From a virus, in IMG/VR virus record IMGVR_UViG_3300042389_000458, positions 1-34,588 of that record: DNA of 34,588 nt; one strand, given 5' to 3'. This document shows, in pieces, positions 26,798 to 34,588 of this stretch. The notes beneath the pieces are model-generated. The model saw only the letters and a list, made by a program, of their open reading frames with translations. It was not told where the DNA came from and made no database searches. The position numbers and the translations under genes are program-made. The first letter of the stretch is position 1. Every line of letters begins with the position of its first letter.

Positions 26798-27256
26798 CTA
26801 CTTATTTCTGCCCTGCAAAATATTCGCTTCATGGTTTCGCATTGGTCTTTGTTTGATGGTTCCCTTTTTTGCTTCCTGCTCCTCGGACCACTCTTTTCTG
26901 GTCGGCAAGTCTCCATCATCCATAACTCTTGGCTCGGCGATGTAATATTTGCCATGAGATTTAGACTTCTTCTTGCCGTCAGCCTCTTGCGCCCTCTCGA
27001 TAGCGGCTCGAGACTTAGAAGTCCTAGCCTTCGCGTCAAATGTCACACGATCGGATTCGTCCCACCACACTGGAATCCCGTCGCGATACCAATCCTCAAG
27101 AATGTAATGGGCCTTGATGAGCTTGAAATCCCATTCATTCCACTCCCGATGCTTGACATCGTTGAAGATTACCGCAAGTGGTGGCTGTCCCGACTTTACC
27201 GCAGCCTTTAAAAGGGTCCTAAACCAGGCGTGATCGTCCCAGGTTAGGACTTCGCT
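26798..27256 (-). CDS. Tail assembly chaperone, -1 frameshift extension (GT-type)
   Basis: An open frame of 152 sense codons without its own start, entered by a -1 slip at 27256-27262. It begins SEVLTWDDHAWFRTLLKAAV and includes YILEDWYRDGIPVWWDESDR, then a Lys-rich tail. Tail assembly chaperones of siphoviruses are made as a short form and a frameshifted long form (here 216 + 152 = 368 residues) that coat the tape measure while the tube grows. Its stop lies 45 bases before the tape measure start, the expected order. Without the frameshift, nearly 450 bases would appear empty. Confidence 0.88.
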   Translation of the reverse strand, partial: SEVLTWDDHAWFRTLLKAAVKSGQPPLAVIFNDVKHREWNEWDFKLIKAHYILEDWYRDGIPVWWDESDRVTFDAKARTSKSRAAIERAQEADGKKKSKSHGKYYIAEPRVMDDGDLPTRKEWSEEQEAKKGTIKQRPMRNHEANILQGRNK

Positions 27257-27262
27257 AAAAAA
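27216..27262 (-). promoter_or_regulatory. Programmed -1 ribosomal frameshift signal
   Basis: Minus-strand heptamer T-TTT-TTA at 27262-27256 in the correct frame (GAT TTT TTA), a five-base spacer, then a hairpin pairing GTCCTAA (27250-27244) with TTAGGAC (27222-27216); two further pairs form after a one-base bulge. Slippery site, spacing and stem match classical -1 sites. Confidence 0.9.
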
Positions 27263-27903
27263 TCCTCATCCACCGTCATCATGAAAAGAGCGCTACTTAC
27301 GCGAATCTTTTCAATAGATTCACTCACCTTGGAAATCGAAGCAAGTGGAAGATTCCTTCTCAGCTCAACAGCATCATCAAAAGTAATTGACTCCTGCTCT
27401 GAACCATCTGGAGCAACGATCTTAGTGATGTGAGCCTGCCAGAGCCGGTCAGTAAAGTATCTGTCGCGTTCCTTGTTTTCGATCTCTACTTTTTCTTGCG
27501 CTCCGCTAAATGGGTTTCTGCTTTTTTCATACTCATAAGGAAACTTTTCCAAAACGGAATCGAAAATATCTTGACGATCACCTTCAGAGATACCGCGAAT
27601 GTGAAAGACATACTTACTGCCACCCATTTCCGATATCATCTTTTCTTTTTGCTCTAGAATTTCCTCACGACGCTTGAGAATGTCATCTGTTTCTTTTTTG
27701 TTCAAAGATTTCTTATCGAGCGATTCACTAGTCTTCGAAATGAGGCCATCTAGTTGCGAGATCGTATAAGCGATATCTTCATCAATAAAAACGTCAACCT
27801 GGGTGGTTGGATATGTTCTACCGCGAACAACATCTGCGATATTAAAAACACCGCGCTGCTTAAGCTTATCCACGGGCTCTAGGATTTCTTTTTCTTCGGA
27901 CAA
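27244..27903 (-). CDS. Tail assembly chaperone, short form (G-type)
   Basis: A 219-residue acidic/basic helical protein (VDVFIDEDIAYTISQLDGL, KKETDDILKRREEILEQKEKM) ending shortly after the slippery heptamer. Position before the tape measure and the frameshift site identify it as the chaperone short form. It starts with TTG at 27903, supported by a very strong AAGGAGG just upstream; no better start exists. An extended -10 box lies about 30 bases upstream and a terminator just before that, so it opens a new transcription unit. Confidence 0.87.
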   Translation of the reverse strand: MSEEKEILEPVDKLKQRGVFNIADVVRGRTYPTTQVDVFIDEDIAYTISQLDGLISKTSESLDKKSLNKKETDDILKRREEILEQKEKMISEMGGSKYVFHIRGISEGDRQDIFDSVLEKFPYEYEKSRNPFSGAQEKVEIENKERDRYFTDRLWQAHITKIVAPDGSEQESITFDDAVELRRNLPLASISKVSESIEKIRVSSALFMMTVDEDFLAKS

Positions 27904-27992: not shown

Positions 27993-28739
27993 TTAGGAAA
28001 CTGTTACCGCACAAGTGTCGGTCTGTCCGTTGGGAGCAGTAGCCGTGATTGTGGCAGAACCAGCAGCAACCGCAGTTACGACACCGGCGCGAACCGTTGC
28101 CTTAGCGGTGTTGCTAGAGGTCCACTCGAGGCCGTTGGTGTAGTTGCGCCCACCCCAAGTTGCCTTGAGTACGCCGACATTGCCAGCACTCAGAGCAAGG
28201 GTTGCGGCAACCCCGCCGACGTTTCCGCCACCGACGACCGTGCGAACCGCAAAGTCACCCTGGGGGAGCATGGTGACCGTGTAACGGAATGCTTCCTCAC
28301 CGGTGATGGACTCTGCGTAGCCATCGGTCATAACCTTGAAGACGTGAACAAGCTCGCCATTAGCGGCCAGGGGGTTGGTCCGCTCGCCATCAATGCGCAT
28401 GACAACATAGCCCAAGGTGCGGGGTGCGTCTAGTGCATCGTAAGCCTGCGAGTAGGTGCTCGTAGCGTCATCGAAGTTGCGTGGGTAGTAAAGGGAAAGT
28501 GATCCACCAAAGTTGGTGTAACCACGATCGATGACCTTACCGATAGCCGTGATGGCTGGGTCATCGATCTGGTTGGAAGCCTCGAGGTTGAAGTCGAAGT
28601 CGTTCCAGGAAATAGCGTCCGAGATGTCCAACGATGCGTTGATCTCGGCAGCGGTAGGCACCTTGTAGTTGGCAAATGCGTTAGGCAGAGCCCACCATAC
28701 TCGGATGTTACCGCTTGCGGGAACTTTGATATCAGTCAT
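27993..28739 (-). CDS. Tail tube-like protein with C-terminal Ig-like domain
   Basis: A 248-residue protein. The N-terminal ~170 residues resemble the neighbouring gene product (shared A-x-P-x-AFA, PT-x-AE-(I/L)-N) and end in VTMLPQGDFAVRTVV, a tail tube-like layout. Residues about 178-248 form a bacterial Ig-like group 2 domain (ALSAGNVGVLKATW, GLEWTSSNTAKATV, GVVTAVAAGSATITAT). Such domains on tube proteins project from the tail surface and may bind sugars on cells. Its ATG overlaps the previous stop as TAATG. Confidence 0.82.
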   Translation of the reverse strand: MTDIKVPASGNIRVWWALPNAFANYKVPTAAEINASLDISDAISWNDFDFNLEASNQIDDPAITAIGKVIDRGYTNFGGSLSLYYPRNFDDATSTYSQAYDALDAPRTLGYVVMRIDGERTNPLAANGELVHVFKVMTDGYAESITGEEAFRYTVTMLPQGDFAVRTVVGGGNVGGVAATLALSAGNVGVLKATWGGRNYTNGLEWTSSNTAKATVRAGVVTAVAAGSATITATAPNGQTDTCAVTVS

Positions 28740-29281
28740 TAGGAGCCAGTCACCTCGTAGTTCCAGTTCACGAAGTCGTTGTTAAGGAACGACTGGCTAA
28801 TGCGCAGGTTTTCACCGTTGCCGCCAATGTCGATACCGAAGTCAGTCTTAACGCCGACCATCTTGATGCGGTCATCGACAGCAAAAACGCTGTCGCTGTC
28901 TTTTCCGACACGGAGAATAGCGATGTATTCAACGTCGGGGAATGCAAGGAGGTCGAACGCTTCGTTGTAAACGCCAACAGCAGCGGTGTCAGCGTCACGG
29001 AATGCTTCCATGACCACCTCTGGGTTGAAGAACGTTGGGGTCGAAACGTTACCGGCGTCGCAGAAAGTCAGCGAGTCGTCGGTGTCCGAGTCTCCGAGCG
29101 TGAAAGTTGTTCCATCTTCGTTCAGCGCGCAGGTTATGTTGTGAACCAGTCCGTCAGCGTTAGTGCTAGCGTTGTACCAGTCGTTCAACTCGGCAACCGT
29201 CGGAGCTGTGCGATCCGCGAATGCCTCCGGGCGAGCGAGGAGGAACGTAATATTCTCACGATAGAGTCTTACGTTAGCCAT
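28739..29281 (-). CDS. Tail tube-like protein, 180 aa (paralogue of 27993 gene)
   Basis: The N terminus NITFLLARPEAFADRTAPTVAELN parallels NIRVWWALPNAFANYKVPTAAEIN-type sequence in the next gene, indicating a tandem duplication. It lacks the Ig-like domain. One of the pair should be the major tail tube subunit; the other may be a minor or decorated version. ATG at 29281 has GAGGAAG upstream and overlaps a TAA that lies in frame with the small upstream gene beyond its amber codon. Confidence 0.78.
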   Translation of the reverse strand: MANVRLYRENITFLLARPEAFADRTAPTVAELNDWYNASTNADGLVHNITCALNEDGTTFTLGDSDTDDSLTFCDAGNVSTPTFFNPEVVMEAFRDADTAAVGVYNEAFDLLAFPDVEYIAILRVGKDSDSVFAVDDRIKMVGVKTDFGIDIGGNGENLRISQSFLNNDFVNWNYEVTGS

Positions 29282-29370
29282 TAGTTGTCTTCCTCAATAG
29301 AGTTTTTTTCTTTGGTTACTTGCTTTCGCCCTGGAACTTCTTCTAGGGCAACATCCTTGGAAACCACTTC

Positions 29371-29577
29371 CTAGGAAATCTTTTTCTTGCTCTTTTTGTA
29401 CAAGGGCATAGTTGGTTGAACCTTTTCTTCAACGGTTCCGCCGTGGTACATTTCGGCAATATAGGGCTTGGTCCCGTTTTCAACGGGAACGAGATATTTA
29501 CTGAACTGTGGGTGCAAAAGCATTTTTGGAGACACGTCAGCGATCTGCCCGGATACAGTATTCATCGCAAGTACCAT
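29371..29577 (-). CDS. Small Lys-tailed structural-region protein, amber-interrupted
   Basis: A 68-residue product (MVLAMNTVSGQIADVSPKML..., ending KKSKKKIS) stops at TAG 29371-29373. The same frame then stays open for 29 more codons, rich in Lys, Glu and Val, to a TAA at 29283-29281 that overlaps the next ATG (TAATG) exactly as at most other junctions here. The natural length may therefore be 98 codons, reached by readthrough or before a recent nonsense mutation. I recall related small phage proteins with charged tails located before the tube gene. Its ATG is six bases after TGG-TAAACT. Confidence 0.7.
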   Translation of the reverse strand: MVLAMNTVSGQIADVSPKMLLHPQFSKYLVPVENGTKPYIAEMYHGGTVEEKVQPTMPLYKKSKKKIS

Positions 29578-29596: not shown

Positions 29597-30052
29597 TTAC
29601 AGCGTGATATTAGCGTCAGGGTTTGAGGAGTTAAATCTAAAAGATAAAGTACCCGACGCTATATATAAATGGGGTTTGCTGTTTGCGTCTTTTACCGCGA
29701 AAGTTCTAATTCCAGAGGATGGCGTTAGTGCGGACCCCTCAATCTTCCATCCGATGAGTTTGTCCATGAACATATTCGAAACGTTGCGCGCAATTTTAGG
29801 TGTTGGGGCAACCGCCGCAAGACTAAAGTTTGAACGGTACTCATCGTGCCTAACTCCAGCAAAAGAGGCTTCGGTGCCACTCCGGGAAAGACCACCCCAC
29901 TGGACGACAACAAAAGGTTTTACATTATTTTTGATCTTCAGAAGATATTCATCGTCAAGAATGATGTCATCGATAATGTCGTAAGCCGGAAATTCCGATT
30001 CAATATGAGCAAGAATTTCATCTTGCAAATAAACTAAATTGATTCCATCCAT
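29597..30052 (-). CDS. Tail terminator/completion-like protein, 151 aa
   Basis: Contains ILDDEYLLKIKNNVKPFVVVQWGG, then FSLAAVAPTPKIARNVSNMFMDKLIGW, and ends LSFRFNSSN, a pattern of alternating helices and strands typical of tail terminators that cap the tube. Position between the HK97-gp10-like gene and the tube genes fits. ATG at 30052 sits in TGATG with the upstream stop; a GTG three bases earlier is equally possible. Confidence 0.72.
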   Translation of the reverse strand: MDGINLVYLQDEILAHIESEFPAYDIIDDIILDDEYLLKIKNNVKPFVVVQWGGLSRSGTEASFAGVRHDEYRSNFSLAAVAPTPKIARNVSNMFMDKLIGWKIEGSALTPSSGIRTFAVKDANSKPHLYIASGTLSFRFNSSNPDANITL

Positions 30053-30600
30053 CACAAAGTACCGTTCAATCTCTTCGTAATTCTCGTCTTGTATTTCTTG
30101 AGAAGGCGTGGCATTTCATCATTGATTTCGGCCTCTGCCGCCTCTAATGCCATAATACCAGGGGTGTCAATAAAGTCCTGACCCCGAATATTCCTGTGAT
30201 AAACCTTTGGTGCGCCGCGCCTGGTCTGCAAAACGCCATCAACATAACTTGCCGCCCATTGATTTTCAAAGCCTTCTTCCTGAAAAAGAAAGTACTCTTG
30301 ATAATTGTGTAGGTAGCCAATAACAGACCTGGTCTGTCTCTGGCCAGACTCTATTCGATAATCAATAGATTCAATCAGGGCACCGCTTCGAATACGGCCC
30401 GGACCGTCATTAACGCCAACTTGTTGAGCGGCCAAAGAAAAATCAGTTCCACTATTGACAACCTTGAAGCGCATTGTTTGAGCGCCAATCTGGCCAATCT
30501 CGTCGGCCATATTCTCGGCTTCTTCCTGAACCAACTCGGGCGCGGCTTCGAGCCTATCTATAAGCTTTCTAAAGCCGGAGACAACAAAATACTTAGTCAC
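30052..30600 (-). CDS. HK97 gp10-like tail completion protein, 182 aa
   Basis: Layout of gp10-like neck proteins: a long N-terminal helix (FRKLIDRLEAAPELVQEEAENMADEIGQ), then GALIESIDYRIESGQ, a strand VIGYLHNYQEYFLFQEEGFE, and a C-terminal amphipathic helix. The YxxFQEEG motif is typical of this family. It joins head-tail connector and tube. GTG at 30600 is six bases after the preceding TAA region and has no strong Shine-Dalgarno, so it probably depends on coupling. Confidence 0.75.
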   Translation of the reverse strand: MTKYFVVSGFRKLIDRLEAAPELVQEEAENMADEIGQIGAQTMRFKVVNSGTDFSLAAQQVGVNDGPGRIRSGALIESIDYRIESGQRQTRSVIGYLHNYQEYFLFQEEGFENQWAASYVDGVLQTRRGAPKVYHRNIRGQDFIDTPGIMALEAAEAEINDEMPRLLKKYKTRITKRLNGTL

Positions 30601-31552: not shown

Positions 31553-31600
31553 GTCCAGCAGGAGGGAAGCTGGTAGTACTAAGTTATCACAGAAATGAAG

Positions 31601-31606
31601 TATCAT
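31601..31606 (+). promoter_or_regulatory. TATCAT -10 box for plus-strand glycosyltransferase
   Basis: TATCAT, six bases (TTGGGT), then GTG at 31613. If correct, the ATG at 31595 lies upstream of the transcript and the protein starts at GTG. Confidence 0.5.
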
Positions 31607-31612
31607 TTGGGT

Positions 31613-32269
31613 GTGTCTAGACTTGCCGTTGTTCTCACTCTGTATGACAGGCTTGAGTATTTGGACAGGCAAATATCAGAACTCGGCGCTCAGAACAATC
31701 AGGATTTTGACCTGTATATATGCAACAACAGCGGGCAAGAGATATCTTTCCCCGGGGCTCGTATCTACAACTACTCCAATAAATATAAAATGTACGGCAG
31801 GTTCTATCTGATTAGGGACCACATCGCAAATGCCGAGTACGACATGGTGCTGCTTGTGGATGACGACGAGGTGTTTCCACCGGGCCTAATAGAAGAATGT
31901 TACAGGCAGTTTGACGAGGAGATTGTAAAATCCTTCTGGGGCTTCCAGACCTACCAGGATTATTGGATAAGAGATAGGCTGCGTGGGGACAGGAAAGGCG
32001 ATTACGCTGGCACTGGTGGCCTCTTGAGCCCTATTGCCCTGTGGCGGATACCCGAGGTTTACGAGGCACCCGAAGAATATTGGATCATAGATGATCTCTG
32101 GTTGTCTTATTGCATATTAAAACATACCGACTACTTAATTATGGGCCTGAACGTACCCATTACGTTTTATCCAGATGAATCCAAGAAGGCAACCTATTTG
32201 TCAATCAAGCCGCTGAAGTCAGCGTTTCACAAGGAATATATTATGCCTTACCGCAGAGCCAGCGGATAG
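31613..32269 (+). CDS. GT-A type glycosyltransferase, 218 aa
   Basis: N-terminal RLAVVLTLYDRLEYL strand-helix and LLVDDDEVFP at about 81-89 (D83-E86) mark a GT-A nucleotide-sugar transferase. Later YAGTGGLLSP and WIIDDLWLSY are reminiscent of the acceptor/metal part of such enzymes. GTG at 31613 is preferred for its -10 geometry; ATG 31595 in frame adds six residues. It is the only plus-strand gene in the right cluster and its 3' end overlaps the convergent GT4-like gene by 29 bases. Target probably a virion or cell-surface glycan. Confidence 0.78.
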   Translation: MSRLAVVLTLYDRLEYLDRQISELGAQNNQDFDLYICNNSGQEISFPGARIYNYSNKYKMYGRFYLIRDHIANAEYDMVLLVDDDEVFPPGLIEECYRQFDEEIVKSFWGFQTYQDYWIRDRLRGDRKGDYAGTGGLLSPIALWRIPEVYEAPEEYWIIDDLWLSYCILKHTDYLIMGLNVPITFYPDESKKATYLSIKPLKSAFHKEYIMPYRRASG

Positions 32270-33185
32270 CGTTGTGCAGTTCCCCAACTTGTCTGGAGAA
32301 CTCTTTCGATAAATTTAACGCACGAAGTTCGGCCTTTTGGGAATACTTCTCGTAGGTCCCTTGATCATCTAGCGACTCTATCAATCTGATAAAAGACTTC
32401 GCATCGTCCGGCTCGGCAAACATTCCGGCATCCGCAACAGATTCCACAAGGCCGGGAGTTCTCGAGGCGACCACTGGTATTCCGGAAGCCATTGCTTCAA
32501 CCGCAACCCTGCCCCAGCTTTCATACTTTGAGGGCATGAAGAATATTTTAGTTTGCGCGTAAATTGACTTCATGTTACCGGTGTTCTCTACAACACGAAC
32601 GTTCGCCAACCTTTTGACTATTTGATTTCCGTAACCACCCTTGACCGCCAGAAACTCTCGATCACTAAGAATCTCCGCAACTCGCCAAAACATATCCACC
32701 CCCTTGATATCAATCAAATTGATAAATGTAATCTTGTTGGCTTCTGGGCGCTCTGTTTTATAGAAATCAATGTTTGTGTGCGGGTTGATAATCATTTTAT
32801 TTAGATTGTTAATTCTTATTCCGTCATACACCCACTTGGAATTGGCAACAATAAGATTGGAGTTGCTTGCATTTAATCTAAAAAGTTTTACGGCCTTGTC
32901 GTTATGGATAAAATGAACAATCGGCTTATTGATTGACTTGGCGTGCTCTATGGCGTGCTTAGTATCGTGATTTTGCGTAAACACAATATCCGCATCGAAT
33001 TGATAAACCTGCGAGTACTTAATAATGCGTATTCCGTCAACGAGCTTATGCGGAGGATTCGGTTGGGCAACCATTACCTCGTGCCCAAGTTCCCGCAGTG
33101 CCAGGAGCGTTTCATGTAACATTAACTCTGCACCAGCTCGGGTGGATGGCGGATATAGATTTACATAGGCAAGAATTTTAGCCAT
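32241..33185 (-). CDS. GT4-type glycosyltransferase (GT-B fold), 314 aa
   Basis: Two-domain GT-B layout: N-terminal KILAYVNLYPPSTRAGAE with a Gly loop, ELGHEVMVAQP; C-terminal domain with FFMPSKYESWGRVAVEAMAS carrying the E-x7-E motif (E222, E230), then GIPVVASRTPGLVESV. These bind the nucleotide sugar. Retaining transferase activity is typical of the family. ATG at 33185 overlaps the stop of the upstream glycosyltransferase by eight bases, so both are translated from one message. Donor and acceptor unknown. Confidence 0.87.
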   Translation of the reverse strand: MAKILAYVNLYPPSTRAGAELMLHETLLALRELGHEVMVAQPNPPHKLVDGIRIIKYSQVYQFDADIVFTQNHDTKHAIEHAKSINKPIVHFIHNDKAVKLFRLNASNSNLIVANSKWVYDGIRINNLNKMIINPHTNIDFYKTERPEANKITFINLIDIKGVDMFWRVAEILSDREFLAVKGGYGNQIVKRLANVRVVENTGNMKSIYAQTKIFFMPSKYESWGRVAVEAMASGIPVVASRTPGLVESVADAGMFAEPDDAKSFIRLIESLDDQGTYEKYSQKAELRALNLSKEFSRQVGELHNAIRWLCGKA

Positions 33186-33909
33186 GCGCCCAACCGCGCA
33201 ATCCCGGCAAAGATTTCAACAATTGCTCATCCCTAAATCCTATGTGCGTAATGTAAGCGTCATATGGATTCTCCGCCCAGAATCCAACTGTAGCGCTAGC
33301 ATCGCGCTTCAGTAGTTGTATACCAAAATCATACTCGTGACTCGAGGTGTTGGGGTATTTATTATCCAATATGCTCCTATGGAACACCGATGGGTTGTGC
33401 GACCAGAAATAGAAGTGCCCTCTTGTTTCGTACCAGCGCTCGCGTTTCTCTGCGAGTTGTGCTTTATTGTCATTCAAATGGTGAAGGAGCAGACTGCCGG
33501 CATCCAGATCGAGACGATGGTATTCGGAGTGCCAAACCGTGCGGGGGACACGCATCTGCGCGATATGTGGATTATTGCATAACTCATATATTATGCTCTG
33601 AACATCTAGTGGCCTGAACAGCATCCAGTCTTCTTCGATCCCCAGGAAGTAATCAACGTCAAGCTCGCGCAGCGTGTCGAATATTTTCTGTACGGCCACG
33701 GCTTGACCGGCCACCCCACTCGATATGGGGACAACGGTAAAGTCTTGCCCGTAATTATCGATCAGCCACTTAACGTGCTCCGGGTCCCCGGAGTCATCGA
33801 AGATGTAACTATACTTCGGCTTATCGATCAGATTGGCCAACCACGAAGCTATCGTTCGTTCGATATATCCCCGTCTACCGTTCCCTAAAATATACCAAGC
33901 GTAATCCAT
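33178..33909 (-). CDS. Glycosyltransferase-like protein, 243 aa
   Basis: YSYIFDDSGDPEHV near 34-46 and DYFLGIEEDWMLF near 86-98 resemble the two metal/donor motifs of GT-A enzymes (EED at 92-94 in place of DxD). GHFYFWSHNPSVFHRSIL is similar to the acceptor side of phage and LPS transferases. ATG at 33909 lies six bases after TAAAAT, which overlaps the stop of the previous gene. It is the first gene of a two-gene unit with the GT4-type enzyme. Confidence 0.72.
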   Translation of the reverse strand: MDYAWYILGNGRRGYIERTIASWLANLIDKPKYSYIFDDSGDPEHVKWLIDNYGQDFTVVPISSGVAGQAVAVQKIFDTLRELDVDYFLGIEEDWMLFRPLDVQSIIYELCNNPHIAQMRVPRTVWHSEYHRLDLDAGSLLLHHLNDNKAQLAEKRERWYETRGHFYFWSHNPSVFHRSILDNKYPNTSSHEYDFGIQLLKRDASATVGFWAENPYDAYITHIGFRDEQLLKSLPGLRGWAHG

Positions 33910-33913
33910 GCTT

Positions 33914-34540
33914 CTATTTTAGTGCAAACACTCCGGACTTGTTAGTGGCATTTGGACCCGGAAGGGTAAAGTTTGTTTCCTTTTCGTTTATGCCATCTTG
34001 ATACACCATGGGATCGGTCAGCCCGTAAACCTCAAAGTACTTTACAAGCTCGGCATTTGCCTTATCGACTGGCTCCGATATCGACACAAGAAAATTATAC
34101 GACTTCATAAGTAGTTTTGCGTAATCTCTATTGAAGTAAACAATGCCGTGCGTAGACAGCATGTTGTAAACGCGATAGAGTTCCCTGGTGTGTGGCTCAA
34201 TAGATATGCGCCTGTGCCCAGTCCCGTTGTAAATACCCCATCTAGATATTCCGACATAGAGGGCATCAGCGGTCTCCGGAACATCTATTGTGGTGTTTGG
34301 GTTCTTGATAAAGATGTCATCTTCAAATATTGCAAATGGACCACTTGTTGCCTCGAGCGCAGTCGCAATGGCCTTTATGTGCGCCATTGCGCAGCCAACA
34401 ATCTTGCCCAAGCCCTCGATGCCGGGAATTCTCGTAACACTTTCGAATCCAAGAACGGCCAGAACCGATTCTGTCGATTCTCTTTTCTCAACATCGGCAT
34501 CCATGTTTATGTAGAACGCCGGAATCTTATTTATCTCCAC
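33914..34540 (-). CDS. GT25-like glycosyltransferase, 208 aa
   Basis: The start IPAFYINMDADVEKRESTESVLAVLGF, then RIPGIEG, VGCAMAHIKAI and FAIFEDDIFI (EDD at 73-75) follow the GT25 pattern: strand-INxD, a Cys-x-x-x-His helix, and a metal-binding EDD. GT25 includes LPS galactosyltransferases and collagen galactosyltransferases. GTG at 34540 sits six bases after TATTCT; no Shine-Dalgarno is seen, so leaderless initiation is likely. A longer reading frame runs through the hairpin upstream and is rejected. Confidence 0.78.
   Translation of the reverse strand: MEINKIPAFYINMDADVEKRESTESVLAVLGFESVTRIPGIEGLGKIVGCAMAHIKAIATALEATSGPFAIFEDDIFIKNPNTTIDVPETADALYVGISRWGIYNGTGHRRISIEPHTRELYRVYNMLSTHGIVYFNRDYAKLLMKSYNFLVSISEPVDKANAELVKYFEVYGLTDPMVYQDGINEKETNFTLPGPNATNKSGVFALK
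33916..33921 (-). promoter_or_regulatory. TAAAAT -10 box for two glycosyltransferase genes
   Basis: Minus-strand TAAAAT, then AGAAGC, then ATG 33909. The first base of the box region touches the TAG stop of the upstream gene. Confidence 0.62.
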
Positions 34541-34546
34541 CAGTAA

Positions 34547-34552
34547 AGAATA
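34547..34552 (-). promoter_or_regulatory. TATTCT -10 box for GT25-like gene
   Basis: Minus-strand TATTCT with TG directly before it, six bases (TTACTG), then GTG 34540. It lies just downstream of a strong hairpin. Confidence 0.6.
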
Positions 34553-34561
34553 CAACACAAA

Positions 34562-34583
34562 GGCCCCCGGTTTCCCGGGGGCC
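34562..34583 (-). terminator. Hairpin terminator at the right edge
   Basis: Perfect 9-bp stem GGCCCCCGG (34562-34570) with CCGGGGGCC (34575-34583), loop TTTC. Read on minus it is followed by a T-rich stretch. It likely ends a unit from off the right edge before the GT25 promoter. Confidence 0.75.
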
Positions 34584-34588
34584 AAAGT

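Follow-up and report, generated by a model that had tools for sequence, protein, structure and literature searches.

An in-frame amber codon in a small tail-module gene of an uncultured bacterial virus, most likely an ordinary mutation or base error

Two C-terminal forms of one protein are produced in the tail module of the siphophage SPP1, where a +1 frameshift at CCCUAA gives rise to the tail tube proteins gp17.1 and gp17.1* (in a ratio of about 3:1), the extension being an FN3-like domain of 87 residues (PMC6316719). Recoding in the same module is also a feature of the lambda gpG/gpGT-type chaperone, by means of a -1 frameshift, and a further way of passing a stop codon, the reassignment of TAG, is known in crAss-like phages (PMC9523058). 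As regards gene order, the closest described counterparts of the locus reported here are small actinophage genes that lie between tail terminator and tail tube genes and fall within the same size class: gp46 of Clavibacter phage CN1A, which joins the tube gene through a TAATG overlap, and Lifes gp34 and Jacko gp45 of Microbacterium phages; none of the three carries an internal stop.

The DNA analysed here (the window, 34,588 bases) is virus record IMGVR_UViG_3300042389_000458, which derives from an uncultured bacterial virus and is possibly a fragment. Its tail module contains the following features:

29597..30055, minus strand: upstream neighbour (phrog_14948), by gene order in the place where Microbacterium phages have their annotated tail terminator
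29371..29577, minus strand: small tail-module ORF of 68 codons, with its start ATG at 29577, ending in an amber codon
29371..29373, minus strand: the in-frame TAG, unique to the window in comparison with 34 relatives
29284..29370, minus strand: extension in the same frame, 29 sense codons equivalent to the variable C-terminal tail in uninterrupted relatives
28739..29281, minus strand: tail tube protein 1 (Pfam PF25595, Phage_TTP_16, E 2.6e-18; phrog_2491, major tail protein)
27993..28739, minus strand: tail tube protein 2 (PF25595, E 1.8e-38; C-terminal Big_2 Ig-like domain PF02368, E 1.9e-6)

The extension closes with TAA at 29283-29281, the final A of which is the first base of the next ATG (TAATG), so that the full frame comprises 98 codons with the amber at codon 69. 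A first-pass annotation of the sequence had given the TAG, the 29 codons and the TAATG at 29281 exactly, leaving the minus strand unstated, and the other overlapping junctions that it reported (13811, 19748, 20802, 21650, 28739 and, as TAGTG, 31061) agree with the ORF list. The small protein resembles CN1A gp46 both in its N-terminal sequence (48% over about 50 residues, E 2e-4) and in its place before the tube gene; with Lifes gp34 and Jacko gp45 it shares only position and general shape. Searched with the small protein, Pfam and PHROGs returned no family, and nothing significant came from a fold search (best E 3.9). The two tail tube proteins (27993-29281, minus strand) are adjacent paralogues of one Pfam family, and the same pair is present in CN1A; tube protein 1 bears a short insertion (WYNASTNAD region) that is absent from most relatives, one of which (L026) has a longer insertion there that differs in sequence. 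Further along the module, a tail assembly chaperone homologue (27244-27903, minus strand, phrog_15960) is followed by a second ORF and then by the tape measure gene (region 26798-27903). A chaperone ORF and a second ORF ahead of the tape measure gene constitute the usual setting of a lambda G/GT-type frameshift, which concerns another gene and differs from the in-frame stop considered here.

In IMG/VR, queries with the small protein, its alignment, the tube protein and the tube-protein alignment recovered 37 contigs bearing a related tube gene (CN1A included), 34 of which carry, immediately upstream of it, an uninterrupted small ORF of 59-96 codons. In every one of these 34 the ORF reaches, or just enters, the start of the tube gene (mostly through TAATG), and in none was an in-frame stop found. 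The 34 include near-identical members and amount to about two dozen distinct sequences, the four or five most distant being matched mainly by position; outside this set stand L102, which is without the usual junction, and L108 and L116, which are without a visible small ORF. In the close relatives the gene is a single ORF of 74-96 codons overlapping the tube gene start, and the final codons, which spell SIEEDN in the window, have their counterpart there (IEEEN or similar). On one contig (L029:2860-3030, the same contig as L063 and L102) the TAATG junction is absent and the small-gene frame overruns the usual tube gene start, in what looks like a short deletion or an assembly fault.

An uninterrupted homologous ORF with the same endpoint in 34/34 relatives that have the small gene is what a fresh nonsense change would leave behind, and it bears out this half of the first-pass annotation, which had offered both readthrough and recent nonsense mutation. 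Relatives that stop at the same place with unrelated sequence beyond, one of the two outcomes that it had named as refuting, were not observed among the 34. We thus regard as very probable a nonsense change specific to this lineage, or a base error, that cuts a variable tail. The frame downstream of the amber is the remainder of the gene, as shown by the homologues that reach the same TAATG junction and by the coding-like composition of the extension. The length of the open stretch is by itself weak evidence, 21% of dinucleotide shuffles being equally open over 29 codons. The codon and amino-acid composition of the extension is coding-like and is matched by no off-frame stretch of the window genes (by 0.2% of off-frame stretches when the final six codons are excluded). 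In its choice among synonymous codons the extension does not look like coding sequence, in a test that has no discriminating power given that the translated tails of relatives score alike. The proposal that the extension continues the Lys/Glu-rich character of the preceding tail is only partly right, as the charge differs (+5 in the tail before the amber, -3 in the extension).

A coding-like extension would fit either continued translation or recent mutation, which brings into consideration a lineage-specific programmed readthrough of the amber, yielding mostly the 68-residue form together with a fixed fraction of a form extended to 98 residues, up to the tube gene start. In its favour count the post-amber frame that is open to the exact junction with a coding-like composition, the existence of two-form tail tube proteins by another route (SPP1, PMC6316719) and the G that follows the TAG, a base that an E. 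coli study (PMC11126739) found to reduce the accuracy of termination. We consider TAG followed by G a mildly leaky context, but in the reporters of that study TAG readthrough averaged about 0.02-0.03% when the cells were at 37 C and stayed below 1% at 18-25 C; some background readthrough is likely. Against a programmed function, a conserved stop followed by a conserved open extension was found in 0/34 relatives, whose genes encode the long form only; the tails that readthrough would add are unconserved in sequence among relatives; and the RNA downstream of the stop is only a little more stably folded than shuffles (fold z -1.65, with 13/200 shuffles as stable). The readthrough half of the first-pass annotation accordingly found no positive support, the amber being unconserved, TAG an ordinary stop here, the downstream RNA structure unremarkable and a suppressor tRNA not found in the window; a programmed function has no support, and we judge it very improbable. 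Were it nonetheless true, a leaky amber would have been recently gained, giving two C-terminal forms in a functional parallel to the frameshifted tube protein of SPP1, albeit through a stop codon in frame, in a small gene other than that of the tube protein, and with a tail of 29 codons. The 10-base palindrome to which attention had been drawn at the amber (TTCCTAGGAA, 29368-29377) does occur in the window just once (0.02 expected), and no function attaches to it, any picked 10-mer being similarly rare. Shifting of frame at the stop was rejected as well: in the +1 frame a stop follows after about 10 codons, and although the -1 frame stays open for about 28, the tail that it would encode is unrelated, rich in cysteine and arginine, and has no counterpart in the relatives.

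Reassignment of TAG to an amino acid in this phage (of the code 15 type) has its precedent in the crAss-like phages (PMC9523058). It conflicts with stop usage in the window, where 11/37 other genes end in TAG (in one case the TAG overlaps the following start codon as TAGTG) and the conserved genes show no other convincing in-frame TAG, and with its tRNA content, no suppressor tRNA having been found and tRNA-Asn being the sole tRNA detected in a record that may be a fragment. On these two grounds the reassignment is refuted as far as the window goes, and we hold it to be barely conceivable.

The first-pass annotation had also argued that translational coupling to the tube genes would matter at this position. 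The junction itself bears on the argument:

29281..29298, minus strand: end of the frame, ATTGAGGAAGACAACTAA(TG), with a probable Shine-Dalgarno GAGGAAG in the last codons and the TAATG overlap

The junction reads ATTGAGGAAGAxAACTAATG in most relatives, and substitutions in the encoded residues (Glu to Lys, Glu to Asp) mostly leave the purine-rich core, GAGGA/AAGGA, in place across the junction list. From this pattern the purine motif looks like the ribosome-binding site of the tube gene, situated inside the small gene and intact in the window. Two consequences follow: the conservation of the last codons is no proof that the extension is translated, because an apparent Shine-Dalgarno sits there, and the tube gene, having its own apparent Shine-Dalgarno, need not rely on ribosomes arriving from upstream, which weakens the coupling argument. 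The same apparent site speaks against a split gene, in which ribosomes terminating at the TAG would restart at the GTG one codon on (TAG GAA GTG, in frame and reachable by a terminating ribosome), so that a peptide of 28 residues would be made and the tube gene would stay coupled through termination and reinitiation. Such an arrangement was seen in none of the 34 relatives compared, and the lysine/glutamate-rich peptide would be one without a known role; we judge it very improbable as well.

With truncation as the preferred reading, the consequences for the protein can be outlined. The conserved domain (about residues 1-52 in the alignment) is intact in the window, and beyond it the relatives vary in both sequence and length. 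For the 68-residue form, the model from AlphaFold2 is confident over about residues 1-30 (block means 87-90), with residues 1-31 predicted to form a small beta-beta-alpha-beta core, and falls below a pLDDT of 50 in the lysine-rich tail (residues 54-68); the lost C-terminal tail is probably disordered. A lineage-specific nonsense change would thus truncate this small tail-module gene in its C-terminal tail, leaving a 68-residue protein that would keep the conserved N-terminal domain, lose the variable tail and presumably still work. As the tails of the relatives range in net charge from -12 to +2 and are in the main acidic, the amber leaves a basic end (+5) where most relatives have an acidic one, and it is possible that this basic end affects function. 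Loss of the tail appears tolerable because short natural homologues with similar lysine-rich ends exist, one of them (L112) having 68 residues and ending in DKKAKK and the CN1A homologue having 69-72 residues (depending on the start) and ending in KKSEKN. The tube gene, with its own apparent Shine-Dalgarno, would still be expressed, its translation probably little affected.

Within the preferred reading, we consider that the amber is probably a true mutation in the phage population, and that a base-calling or assembly error at 29371-29373 in an intact phage gene is unlikely, although it deserves serious weight. An error would account for a stop that is unique in comparison with 34 relatives, in a virus record that comes without isolate data; moreover, the stop sits in a short imperfect tandem repeat:

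29349..29378, minus strand: two adjacent 15-nt units, TTTCCTAGGAAGTGG and TTTCCAAGGATGTTG, 12/15 identical and in codon register

The amber lies inside the first unit, and the aligned place in the second is a sense codon. A repeat of this quality was reached by 2/1000 local shuffles, with about 0.6 such positions expected per whole-window shuffle, and a link between the origin of the amber and the 15-nt duplication is only suggestive from the sequence. Opposed to an error are the affected stretch, which tolerates change and makes a real mutation plausible without special pleading, and the state of the remaining conserved genes of the window, none of which is clearly broken, so that the contig does not seem rich in errors. 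No near-identical phage was found by exact-match search, and genome contigs and plasmids likewise gave none.

Taken together, the stop is most likely an ordinary mutation or base error and not a new decoding mechanism. We argue that the locus holds a caution, in that an open frame running past a stop to a tidy overlapping junction mimics recoding, and comparison with relatives reveals plain truncation or a base error in an apparently dispensable tail. A genuine amber would suggest that this uncharacterised small protein of the tail module tolerates shortening of its tail, and that the tube gene is independent of strict stop-start coupling.

In the search of the window for other interrupted conserved genes no clear case was found, the few further matches being, by our reading, gene starts, divergent fibre genes and antisense frames; a frameshift suspected at about 11667 turned out to be an ordinary boundary between two small genes. 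At the end of the window (31595-34585), four ORFs (31595-32269 on the plus strand; 32241-33185, 33178-33909 and 33914-34585 on the minus strand) resemble glycosyltransferases by eye.
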